Below, piece after piece: positions 3,775-61,096 of a stretch of 64,000 nucleotides of DNA. Position 1 is the stretch's first letter. Each line of letters opens with the position of its first letter. The notes under the pieces are model-generated. The model was not told the DNA's origin and did no database searches. It saw nothing but the letters and a program-made list of their open reading frames with translations. The position numbers were made by a program, and so were the translations under genes. The DNA is taken from contig NZ_RJWA01000004.1 of the NCBI RefSeq assembly GCF_003762835.1, positions 62,001-126,000 of the forward strand, given 5' to 3'. This stretch comes from Micromonospora sp. HM5-17. GTDB taxonomy: Bacteria > Actinomycetota > Actinomycetes > Mycobacteriales > Micromonosporaceae.

Positions 3775-3855
3775 GCCCGGGTGGTGGAAAGGCAGACACG
3801 GCCGCCTTAAAAGCGGCTGCCGCAAGGCGTGCGGGTTCGAGCCCCGCCCCGGGCA
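3775..3855 (+). tRNA. tRNA-Leu(UAA)
   Basis: A class II tRNA gene of 81 nt. The 7-bp acceptor stem pairs GCCCGGG (3775-3781) with CCCGGGC (3848-3854), discriminator A at 3855. The anticodon stem GCCGC/GCGGC (3801-3805/3813-3817) closes loop CTTAAAA with anticodon TAA at 3808-3810. The long variable arm has stem GCC/GGC with loop GCAA (3818-3830). The T-arm is GCGGG-TTCGAGC-CCCGC (3831-3847). The body matches E. coli tRNA-Leu(UAA) closely from memory. CCA is not encoded. UUA is a rare codon in high-G+C actinomycetes, and its tRNA (bldA in Streptomyces) limits translation of developmental genes there; this gene would be the bldA equivalent. A TACCGT box at 3731-3736 may be its -10. Confidence 0.95.
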
Positions 3856-4138
3856 CGCAGCGCCCGCGTGGCTGCGCTCCCGCTCGCCGGCGGGATTGTG
3901 GTCCGCGATTCCGGTCACGGCGGGGACGAGCCGTGCCCAGGTTGGGCTCGCTGCCGACCCGAGCCCGGACGGGCGCCCCGCATCGGCGGTGAGCCCGGTT
4001 CCCGACCCGTGGCCCCCTTCCGTCCCCGGAGTCCCCTACCAGCCTGGGCGGTGGCGTCGATCTCCCCAATGTCGCCATTGACCGTTACCCTTGGTATGGC
4101 ACGGTCACCGTGTACCGACCCTCAGGAGGCTTGACAAA

Positions 4139-12810: not shown

Positions 12811-13338
12811 TCAGGGCAGGTCGCGGACGTACCGGAGCTGCAAGGTCGAGGCCGGGCCGATCTCGCCCTGTCGTTCCCCACCGTCGGGGCGCCACCCGCC
12901 CCGGGCGTAGAACTCGCGTGCGCGGACGTTGTCGGCGAGGACCCAGAGCACGGCCCGCGGCCACCCCCGGGCGGACAGCTTCGCCAGCGCGTCGACCATC
13001 AGCGCCCGGCCCACGCCGCGGCCCTGCTCCGCCGGGTCAAGGTGGATCGCGTACAGCTCGCCGATCCCGAATCCCGCCGAGCCGGGCCCGCGGGGGTCGT
13101 GGGGGCCGAGGTACGTGAAACCGATCAGCCGTCCGGCCCGTTCCGCCACCGTCAGCAGGTGACTGTCCCGCTCGAACGACCAGCGCTCCCGCCAGTAGTC
13201 CGCCATCATGTCCCCGGAGACCGAGGCCAGGGCGTCGGCCGGCACGATCTCCCGGTACGCCGCGGCCCGCGAACGTTGGTGCAGGTCGCCGACGGCGGGC
13301 AGGTCATCGGCGACCGCCGGGCGCAGGGTGACCATCAT
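12811..13338 (-). CDS. GNAT family N-acetyltransferase
   Basis: A 175-residue GCN5-related acetyltransferase that transfers an acetyl group from acetyl-CoA to an unknown amine. The acetyl-CoA-binding motif A is [17 protein letters not shown] (Q/RxxGxG/A). Strand 4 (YLGPHDPRG...GELYAI) precedes it, and motif [14 protein letters not shown] follows. The start ATG overlaps the stop of rnz as ATGA (13335-13338), so the gene is the second in an rnz operon and probably translationally coupled. It is convergent with cbs, with a possible weak hairpin at 12752-12787 in the 60-bp gap. Confidence 0.82.
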
Positions 13339-14327
13339 TCGATCGTAGTCGCGCCGGCCTCCGTCGGGCCGTGCCCCGGGAGGCGGCGGGCGGGGACCGG
13401 CACCCGGATCAGGTCCTCCGCGAGGACGAGTTCGCCGTCGAACTCCGCGCGCGCCTCCTCCGTGAAGCGCTCGACCGCCGGCCGGCGCCCCGCCGATCCC
13501 GACCCCGGTGCGCCGTACCGCTGGGAGAAGTGGGTGAGGACGAGTCGTCGTACCCCGGACTCCGCCGCCACCCGCGCGGCCTGGCCGGCGGTCAGGTGCC
13601 CGACCTCGGCGGCGAGCGCGGCGTCCTCGGCGAGGAAGGTCGACTCGATCACCAGCAGGTCGGCCCGTTCCGCCAGCGCGAAGACCGCGTCGCAGAGCCC
13701 GGTGTCCATGACGAAGGCGAACCGCTGCCCGGGGCGGGGCGCGCTCACCTCGTCGAGGGTGACGCGGCGCCCGTCGACGTCGAGGTGGCCGGTGCGAATC
13801 AGCTCACCGACGGCGGGCCCGCGAATCCCGTACGCCGCCAGCCGCTCCGGCAGCATCCGCCGCTCGTCCGGCTCCACCAGCCGGTAGCCGTACGTCTCGA
13901 CGGGGTGCGCCAGACGGCGGGCCTCCAACCGGCCGGCCGAGGTCTCGAAGCTCTGCCCGTCCCGGGCCACCGGTAGCTCCCGTACCTCGGCCGTCTCCAC
14001 GAACGAGCTGGCGTACCGGAGCCGGTCGAAATACCGGCGGTCGGCGGCGGGGAAGTGGGTGTGGATGGGATGGGCGACCCGGTCCAGGGAGAGCCGTTGG
14101 ATCACCCCGGGCAGACCAAGGCAGTGATCGCCGTGGAAGTGGGTGACGCAGATCCGGGTCAGGTCGCTCGCCGCGACGCCGGCGGCGATCATCTGTCGCT
14201 GGGTGCCCTCGCCCGGGTCGAAGAGGAACACCTCCCGGTCCCACCGCAGGACGTAGCCGTTGTGGTTGCGGTGCCGGGTGGGCACCTGGCTCGCCGTGCC
14301 CAGCACCACCAGCTCGCGTACGGACAC
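13335..14327 (-). CDS. rnz: Ribonuclease Z
   Basis: A 330-residue metallo-beta-lactamase-fold endonuclease that removes the 3' trailer of tRNA precursors, needed where CCA is not encoded, as in the tRNA-Leu gene of this window. The zinc motif [13 protein letters not shown] (HxHxDH) is complete. Further ligands are in FVMDTGLCD and LTHFSQRYG (HST-like motif). The C-terminal 30 residues are basic and variable. The GTG at 14327 has GGGAG 7 nt upstream. The gene heads an operon with an acetyltransferase. About 200 nt upstream on the same strand is an unusual promoter plus extended Shine-Dalgarno mini-gene (14522-14621) that may be its leader. Confidence 0.92.
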
Positions 14328-14481
14328 GACGACGCTCCCGGGAAATGGTCGACCCCCGGGGTTCCCGCATGACGCTGGTCACGCAGGCGCCGACTGGACA
14401 AGGGCCGGCGCCCCGGGGGCCGGGTGGCTGACGTGGATTCGCCGTACCGCTGCCACACGGTCTCGACGATTTCTGGCACGT

Positions 14482-14500
14482 GCCCGCCGTACGGCGGACC
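14482..14500. repeat. Palindrome downstream of the mini-gene
   Basis: TCCGCCGTACGGCGGA is a 16-nt perfect palindrome within this interval, about 25 nt after the mini-gene stop on the minus strand. Between them is a small hairpin CTGTC-ctt-GACAG. They could attenuate transcription between the mini-gene and rnz. Confidence 0.4.
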
Positions 14501-14521
14501 CGAAACTGTCAAGGACAGCGG

Positions 14522-14560
14522 CTAGCGGACAGCCACCTCACGAGTCCTATCGCCATACAA
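14522..14560 (-). CDS. Mini-gene: 12-codon reading frame with extended Shine-Dalgarno
   Basis: TTG at 14560 opens a 12-codon frame (MYGDRTREVAVR, stop TAG at 14524-14522). The 15 nt at 14580-14566 on the minus strand, GAAAGGAGGTGGTCC, complement the 3' end of 16S rRNA over their whole length with a single G-U wobble. They end 5 nt before the TTG; the GGAGG core is 11 nt away. A second frame, ATG 14556, codes 15 residues (MAIGLVRWLSASRCP), reading past the first stop. Which frame is used is not certain. The gene sits about 195 nt upstream of rnz on the same strand and may be its leader. Confidence 0.5.
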   Translation of the reverse strand: MYGDRTREVAVR

Positions 14561-14592
14561 AGCCCGGACCACCTCCTTTCCCGTGTACGGCC

Positions 14593-14621
14593 ACGCTATC
14601 CACGGGGTAGGGCGGCGGCAA
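14593..14621 (-). promoter_or_regulatory. Promoter of the mini-gene upstream of rnz
   Basis: On the minus strand TTGCCG (14621-14616) and TAGCGT (14598-14593) are separated by 17 bp. The expected start, about 14586, would place the extended Shine-Dalgarno within some 5 nt of the mRNA 5' end. The remaining part of the 442-bp spacer, 14622-14769, shows nothing recognisable. Confidence 0.55.
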
Positions 14622-14769
14622 CGATTTTTGACCGCACGCCCGGGCGGGCCCGGGCGCCCGCGCCGGATTGGAGGCCGGGAGGCCCCGGCGGAGCCGGGCC
14701 GCACGGAGGTTTGCGGGACCCCGCCCCCCGGACACCCTGCCGGCGGGCCGGCAGCCGGTGCCGGCCCGA

Positions 14770-60644: not shown

Positions 60645-60902
60645 ATGGACGGCCGACTCGAGGTGGCCGACCTACTCGGCAACGCTCCGGAGTGGCAAGA
60701 GCGCGCGCTGTGCTCGCAGACCGACCCGGAGGCGTTCTTTCCCGAGAAGGGCGGTTCCACCCGCGAGGCGAAGCGAATCTGCTCCCGCTGCGAGGTCAAG
60801 GCCGAGTGCCTGGAGTACGCGCTCGGACACGACGAACGGTTCGGCATCTGGGGCGGACTGTCCGAACGCGAACGGCGCAAGCTGAAGCGTCGGGTCGCCT
60901 GA
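60645..60902 (+). CDS. whiB: WhiB-family iron-sulfur transcriptional regulator (WhiB2/WhmD type)
   Basis: An 85-residue Wbl protein. The four cluster cysteines are C23, C46, C49 and C55 (ALCSQTD and RICSRCEVKAECLEYAL). GIWGG at 67-71 is the turn that contacts sigma factor region 4, and the C-terminus ERRKLKRRVA is the basic DNA-binding tail. WhiB controls sporulation septation in Streptomyces and WhmD/WhiB2 division in mycobacteria; position next to fbiAB and the zincin/DUF3499 pair matches whiB2 from memory (Rv3260c). ATG 60645 has AAGGAGG 7 nt upstream. Confidence 0.92.
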   Translation: MDGRLEVADLLGNAPEWQERALCSQTDPEAFFPEKGGSTREAKRICSRCEVKAECLEYALGHDERFGIWGGLSERERRKLKRRVA

Positions 60903-60911
60903 GCGGGCGAC

Positions 60912-60940
60912 GACCCGGGCGGTTGGGGGCCGCCCGGGTC
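60912..60940. terminator. 11-bp perfect hairpin after whiB
   Basis: GACCCGGGCGG (60912-60922) pairs with CCGCCCGGGTC (60930-60940) around loop TTGGGGG, 9 nt after the whiB stop. Confidence 0.75.
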
Positions 60941-61096
60941 CGGCGCCGGCCCGGGCCCGCGAGGGGGCGCGGCCGGGCGGCGACCGCCGGAGCGCCGGGA
61001 GACCCGCGGGTGAGCGGCTGCGGGACATCGAGCCCGGCGCGACACCCACCACGGCCGGTCGTCACCCCGCCGCCGGACGAACCCGCCACGCGACGG

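Follow-up and report, generated by a model that had tools for sequence, protein, structure and literature searches.

A conserved complement of the 16S rRNA tail and a conserved mini-ORF in the Rfam small RNA family RF02471 suggest a possible ribosome trap

A site in Micromonospora sp. HM5-17 that was initially annotated as an undescribed mini-gene (positions 14522-14621) forms the 5' end of a structured RNA, some 240 nt in length, from the Rfam family RF02471 (Ms_IGR-5, "Actinobacteria sRNA"). The window, by which we mean the whole 64,000-nt stretch of DNA that was analysed (all coordinates count from its first base), gives a cmscan match to this family at 14344..14586 on the minus strand that scores 85.6 bits (E 1.6e-17) against a cut-off of 45. 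The match covers positions 1-184 of the 184 in the model and is not cut off, and it is the only RF02471 match in the genome at E ≤ 0.001. Membership is near certain; the RNA is therefore not an undescribed element, and it is much longer than the mini-gene that had been proposed. What sequence comparison adds to the RF02471 entry is a conserved putative mini-ORF, a complement of the complete 16S rRNA tail, and relatives in other phyla.

The RNA has been seen before in several actinobacteria. It is listed as a small RNA with RNA-seq support in S. lividans (PMC8079986), a study of S. avermitilis reports it as the transcription unit of a small RNA (PMC8780764), and its homologues in M. abscessus and M. 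smegmatis carry ribosome-protected reads (PMC4974804). We found no description of a function, a frame or a 16S pairing for RF02471 in the open-licence literature. Identity with scr3559 was considered and rejected; that transcript is described as a 6S-like RNA.

Among the 396 genomes sampled from the phylum, RF02471 matches 70 at E ≤ 0.001 and 35 above its cut-off. R1, a model of the 5' module built after comparing 70 loci, matches 165 of the 396 at E ≤ 0.01, or 141 when the 24 matches weaker than 1e-5 are left out. A pattern scan of genome contigs gave at least 119 stretches, and R1 confirmed 76 of the first 80 and 39 of the 39 others. We dropped three loci that have no R1 match at the patterned site (L128, L147, L149), one that reached only 15.9 bits (L162), as well as the additional weak match in each of L111, L146 and L179. 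The resulting 275 loci contain 270 that are distinct over the first 120 nt, and 268 without L276 and L278, whose stop geometry does not fit. Counts over 157 loci exclude the 119 pattern-scan loci because the pattern fixed GGAGGTGGTCC; these 157 were found with models trained on the motif and were filtered for GG[AG]GG[TA] and G[AG]GGT.

The family extends beyond Actinomycetota (phyla are named here as in the titles of the records). Copies were read in MAGs titled Zixibacteria, Sumerlaeota (an occurrence that consists of one MAG), Bryobacterales and Deltaproteobacteria, in further Acidobacteriota and Zixibacteria, and in genomes from the phyla of a "Deltaproteobacteria" MAG and a "Nitrospirae" MAG. 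At E ≤ 0.001, R1 matches 33 of 149 genomes in the phylum to which the Bryobacterales MAG belongs, and R2 matches 38 of 98 in the phylum of the Zixibacteria MAG, 35 of them at 1e-7 or better. At E ≤ 1e-4, R2 matches 7 of 198 genomes in the phylum of genome G400 and 4 of 148 in that of genome G552; three loci in each are convincing by eye (L380, L381 and L382; L317, L388 and L389), and the remaining matches other than L387 look like chance. The copies outside Actinomycetota have their own promoter-like sequence and ORF, most have a partner for the helix P1 described below, and several have a terminator. The RF02471 cut-off is reached in 3 of 20 loci scanned (L281, L341 and L388), 19 of the 20 being from outside Actinomycetota. 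The 16S-tail complement and the frame have been kept across at least five phyla, or six with the single Sumerlaeota assembly.

The complement of the 16S rRNA 3' tail (Shine-Dalgarno 1, hereafter SD 1) is 18 nt long when G-U pairs are allowed and lies at 14564..14581 on the minus strand. The near-complete complement reported initially is thus present, its 15 nt (GAAAGGAGGTGGTCC, 14566-14580, minus strand) being extended to 18 in the G-U-inclusive run. The sequence GAAAGGAGGTGRTCC occurs once without mismatch in the 64-kb window, and the three other matches each have 3 mismatches, where 2.8 matches with at most 3 mismatches are expected by chance. The pairing partner is real, since the two 16S genes found in the genome (L374 and L367) both end in GGATCACCTCCTTTCT. 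These copies, L367 and L374, differ near the 3' end (GGGTGG versus GGCTGG), so one of them is a variant copy. With the host's 16S tail the RNA can form 18 nt of pairing, whereas the 47 predicted gene starts of the window reach 3-9 nt; these starts were taken as the first ATG or GTG of long ORFs, so that some true Shine-Dalgarno sequences may be missed. The predicted duplex energy is -34.3 kcal/mol, compared with -11.6 for AAGGAGGU.

This complement is well kept in the relatives. Continuous pairing of at least 15 nt is found in 144 of the 157 model-found loci, the four outer G of GGAGG are invariant in all 157, and the Shine-Dalgarno filter cost no locus. Departures from the Watson-Crick complement number 279 in these loci, and 237 of them are wobble-compatible, with the G-U pair kept; 144 of the 237 fall at one position, where helix P2 (below) also asks for G, and without that position 93 of 134 are wobble-compatible. 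Since transitions are the commonest mutations, the wobble figure cannot by itself serve as proof. Shorter runs occur in 13 loci: 11 from Acidobacteriota, L015, and L254, whose run of 6 results from misanchoring by the locus filter. In the 11 (of 30) Acidobacteriota loci pairing extends over only 10-13 nt, and in ten of these the run lies beside a base that is inserted or altered after GGAGG. A search of 15 genomes located the 16S tail itself in 7, namely five Actinomycetota, the Sumerlaeota MAG and one genome from the Zixibacteria phylum. The three Acidobacteriota among the 15 gave no tail, so the complement is assumed for Acidobacteriota. In L028, L055 and L064 an anti-Shine-Dalgarno-like copy (for example GGATCACCTCC or GGACCACCTCC) follows the ORF and could mask SD 1.

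GGAGG-type Shine-Dalgarno sequences are common in general, and it might be supposed that this one is long by chance. Its length compared with those before the 47 gene starts, and its retention together with a frame and a covarying helix in several phyla, make that explanation scarcely credible, and we regard it as refuted by conservation.

SD 1 is followed by a mini-ORF of 12 codons, called from frame conservation, that starts with TTG and encodes (M)YGDRTREVAVR before a TAG stop (14522..14560, minus strand). It contains an internal GAGGTG (14534..14539, minus strand), a possible second Shine-Dalgarno sequence (SD 2), and the stop begins 15 nt after the first base of this hexamer, which is found in 151 of 157 relatives. 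Both short frames that had been proposed, this one and an ATG frame of 15 codons from 14556 on the minus strand (MAIGLVRWLSASRCP-stop), are present. The TTG frame is conserved and the ATG frame is not: no earlier in-frame stop occurs in any of the 268 loci, whereas the other two frames have a stop before the internal Shine-Dalgarno sequence in 180 and 150 of them, and the ATG frame was rejected on that count. The stop (TAG in 213 loci, TGA in 41, TAA in 14) lies 15 nt (255 loci) or 14 nt (13 loci) after the start of the internal G[AG]GGT in 268 of the 270 distinct loci, and the distance between the two Shine-Dalgarno sequences takes 22 values across the 268.

The start is placed in a similar way by the relatives. 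When an open frame is required, an in-frame start-like codon lies 6-13 nt after GGAGG in 262 of 268 loci, against 0 and 15 in the other frames; when it is not required, ATG, GTG or TTG at 6-14 nt is in frame in 233 of 268, against 16 and 10, all these counts taking each sequence as independent of kinship. The 262 comprise 229 with ATG, GTG or TTG and 33 with only CTG, ATC, ATT or ATA, and the remaining 6 loci have no start candidate at a spacing of 6-13. ORF length is 12-15 codons in 238 of the 262 and ranges from 10 to 22. The only start candidate is ATT in L041, L042 and L045, ATC in L034, L046 and L052, and CTG in L050. Such weak starts could conceivably mark a sensor class.

Might the RNA simply be the messenger of a functional micropeptide ending in Glu-Val-x-x-x, its strong signals serving merely for good translation? 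Glu-Val stands at codons -5/-4 in all 255 loci of the 15-nt type, and 3 of these use another Val codon (L286 reads GAG GTT), so a role for the peptide is possible in that group. In addition, two Tsukamurella loci (L126 and L154) are seemingly reduced, in that P1 and the 3' part were not seen and a hairpin follows soon after, and they keep the Shine-Dalgarno sequence, the frame and EVAAA. Against this, the 13 loci of the 14-nt group read GAGGU in a shifted frame and encode an unrelated peptide while keeping GAGGU, the stop and the open frame, which indicates that frame, stop and spacing are kept more than the peptide. Codons -2 and -3 and the N-terminal part also vary, and Glu is encoded by GAG in 255 of 255 loci although GAA would serve equally, an invariance that is partly a product of the locus filter, which demanded G[AG]GGT. 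We consider the micropeptide explanation quite unlikely.

The putative promoter lies where it had been proposed. A -35 box TTGCCG (14616..14621) and a -10 box TAGCGT (14593..14598), 17 nt apart, can be read directly on the minus strand. An automatic scan of 14250-14700 called no consensus sigma-70 promoter, and our call rests on position and on the relatives: TTG occurs 16-19 nt before TAnnnT in 49 of 157 (1 of 157 once the upstream DNA is shuffled), and TAnnnT is found near the -10 position in 86 of 157 (63 of 127 and 23 of 30). The initial annotation had staked its proposal on conservation of the pairing region, the promoter and the mini-frame in related genomes; the pairing region and the TTG frame prove to be strongly conserved, and the promoter is recognisable in the 49 relatives just mentioned. 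At the other end of the RNA, the scan of 14250-14700 found no U-tract terminator, and none follows the 3' hairpin. No more than 52 of 157 loci have TTTT within 260 nt after the stop; such a terminator is thus no general feature of the family, and the view of the RNA as "stand-alone" therefore rests on gene order and on the S. avermitilis report.

Three helices and a 3' hairpin, all on the minus strand, organize the RNA. P1 joins the extreme 5' end (CACG, 14582..14585) to the bases before the internal GAGGTG (CGTG, 14539..14542), an arrangement seen in the 5' module of 70 loci and in the predicted minimum-energy fold. Its cells are paired in 97.3% of cases in an alignment of 66 distinct sequences and in 85.1% in one of 140. 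Two-sided changes affect 71 cells, a value reached by 0 of 500 shuffles of the 66-sequence set, and the measures behave in the same way in the 140-sequence set. In either alignment two of the five measures of covariation are not above the shuffles: the number of pairs with two-sided change was reached by 500 and 476 of 500 shuffles, and that of further pair types by 273 and 101 of 500. P2 (GGTCC at 14566..14570, overlapping the 16S complement, with GGACT at 14543..14547) is part of the predicted fold and is paired in 80.6% (66 sequences) and 73.6% (140 sequences) of cells; it has no two-sided change in the 66-sequence alignment and hardly any overall, and so is weakly supported.

P3 is a long-range helix in which the ORF segment GGUGxxxxx (GGTGGCTG, 14530..14537, inside the end of the ORF) pairs with bases immediately before the 3' hairpin (CAGCCACC, 14423..14430). 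The locus's own partner region beats permuted versions of itself in 131 of 156 cases and sequences of equal G+C in 128 of 156, comparisons that do not model kinship, and a helix over all 9 positions (bulge of at most 2) can form in 111 of 157 loci, a number that falls to 45 of 157 when the downstream DNA is shuffled. L381 and L382 differ by a compensatory change, GGTGGTGAC with GTCACCACC in the one and GGTGGTGTC with GACACCACC in the other. The 3' hairpin (14350..14422) has a 12-bp stem formed by 14411-14422 with 14350-14361 and is found both in the predicted fold and in the Rfam structure, whose structure line is without P1 or P3 as found here even though the match is full-length and above the curated cut-off. 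The unconstrained minimum-energy fold of the RNA in the window contains P1, P2, P3 and the 3' hairpin (z -3.24), and P3 and the 3' hairpin coexist in it. In the one Zixibacteria RNA that was folded, P3 appears and P1 does not. The 3' hairpin loop, judged by eye in many loci, is often GUCC or GGUCC, like the 5' strand of P2 (in the window, GTCC at 14396-14399 lies in the loop region), and the GGACC strand could switch partners.

So stable a fold would also suit an ordinary trans-acting antisense sRNA that uses some other seed and in which ribosome binding affects only stability. The small-RNA transcription unit described in S. avermitilis (PMC8780764), the single RF02471 match in the genome, and an AATCC segment (14435..14439, minus strand) that recurs as an AATCC-like motif in 132 of 157 relatives (by a loose pattern and without a control) are in keeping with this idea. 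Outside the helices no stretch is better conserved than the 16S complement, a fact that speaks against a different seed, and we hold the antisense explanation to be unlikely. As regards a dual-function sRNA, both coding and regulatory, what bears on a translated ORF is the conserved frame and the ribosome-protected reads on the mycobacterial homologues.

The downstream neighbour of the RNA, which is not part of the element, is a 330-aa ORF with an HFHGDH motif (13335..14327, minus strand) that we provisionally take to be rnz-like from this motif and from the name given to it initially. This ORF has the orientation of the RNA and starts 16 nt past the match, and the intervening DNA gave no U-tract terminator. 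The RNA could accordingly be imagined as a cis-acting leader that uses P3 and the 3' hairpin to make reading of the downstream gene (here rnz) depend on whether the mini-ORF is translated. Leader-peptide attenuators have such a design, with a short ORF that overlaps a long-range helix before a hairpin, and the RNA in the window likewise has a conserved short ORF before a hairpin. The family differs from them in having no conserved same-strand gene downstream: in 293 loci the first large downstream ORF is on the strand of the RNA in 130, on the opposite strand in 137, and not called in 26, by a simple and crude ORF caller whose calls for L104 and L192 look spurious by eye. The downstream neighbours that we examined differ between lineages. 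Presumably rnz-like proteins follow in L016, L178, L189 and L204, which are 4 of the 7 actinobacterial loci translated; others among the 17 downstream ORFs translated in all we take, by eye, to be nitroreductase-, HemL-, ThiG- or xanthine dehydrogenase-like. Since the two orientations are about equally frequent, a stalling leader of rnz, as the initial annotation had suggested among other roles, is not the general role of the family; the rnz-like gene here and in the 4 of 7 loci makes a local link possible. Further points against a leader are terminator-like ends, judged by eye in several lineages although TTTT is infrequent as noted above, and the coexistence of P3 with the 3' hairpin in the predicted fold. 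As an explanation of the RNA we regard the cis-acting leader as improbable. Elsewhere in the window ARAGORN places a tRNA-Leu (taa) at 3775-3856 and a tRNA-Gly (ccc) at 60866-60961, the latter absent among the Rfam matches.

By comparison, then, the 16S complement, the frame, the stop spacing, P1 and P3 are conserved and no neighbour is fixed; P1, as predicted, holds the complement in a loop, and the end of the ORF lies in the long-range P3. Complement and frame were retained whereas the neighbours and the greater part of the peptide changed, which suggests the ribosome as the partner of the RNA. A ribosome-trap or sponge reading, both of which had been proposed initially, appears to fit best, and the best model is that of a mini-mRNA that captures 30S subunits as a trap or sensor, to which we would give somewhat less than an even chance. 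According to this model a 30S subunit would dock on the exposed, looped-out complement, with far more pairing than with an ordinary mRNA, and would then translate the mini-ORF and open P3. In an initiation complex the Shine-Dalgarno sequence usually stands some 8 nt 5' of the codon in the P site. With a ribosome at the stop codon the internal GAGG would have that same position, about 8 nt before the P-site codon, so that the ribosome might be held there. The RNA could thereby act as a ribosome sink or as a gauge of free 30S subunits, and no specific downstream gene or peptide would be needed. Work by Komarova from 2002 is said to have found extended Shine-Dalgarno sequences inhibitory in E. 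coli.

In its most extended form, which we put forward only tentatively, the proposal is that the RNA is a widespread decoy, a 30S counterpart of 6S RNA that traps subunits with the whole tail complement, leads them through a mini-ORF whose stop SD 2 keeps in register, and thereby senses or buffers free ribosomes. Such a decoy would possibly shift translation towards leaderless mRNAs. If 30S capture or sensing is true, ribosomes in bacteria would have a regulatory RNA of their own, as RNA polymerase has in 6S RNA, and the deletion of one gene would allow one to ask how a cell measures its free ribosomes.

6S RNA and Ms1 (PMC9130861, PMC4191392) share with this model the idea of a core machine of the cell being occupied by a structured RNA; they bind RNA polymerase, whereas the ribosome is the predicted partner here, and no sequence relation is claimed. 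The rpsU mRNA of Flavobacteria (PMC10931766) also has an unusually extended Shine-Dalgarno sequence that reads the state of the 30S subunit, but it is an ordinary ribosomal-protein mRNA that is regulated through bS21. A lack of bS21 as the reason for tolerating a long duplex was rejected. The 36 Actinomycetota tested, whether they carry the RNA or not, all gave no match to the protein (PF01165), and neither did the RNA-bearing genome G552. Among Acidobacteriota and Zixibacteria it was found in every genome tested, 18 of 18 with the RNA and 17 of 17 others; bS21 therefore does not explain the RF02471 family. Finally, the extended Shine-Dalgarno sequences of Staphylococcus aureus (PMC13009471) resemble the RNA in forming helices longer than those of E. 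coli and in their association with small ORFs and non-canonical starts, and differ in that they are motifs spread over many mRNAs and do not make up a single conserved RNA.

Pseudomonadota homologues were sought and rejected: 16 of 249 genomes match at E ≤ 0.001, none above 23.1 bits, and the ten matches that we read were judged by eye to be chance or an alphaproteobacterial look-alike. In the four look-alike loci that were scanned, no Rfam family besides tRNA was found. Under the decoy proposal, a separate RNA of the same design may have evolved in Alphaproteobacteria. Units of the same design but with little similarity are seen in genomes of the Pseudomonadota sample, at L322, L325, L326, L328, L329, L330, L331 and L333, where they start at about position 1501 of the strand as read and consist of CGAAAGGAGGTGATCC or GGTCC, then GTG or ATG with a short frame, and then a terminator-like end; in L326 and L328 that short frame is MSYTKRCHLAGIAR.
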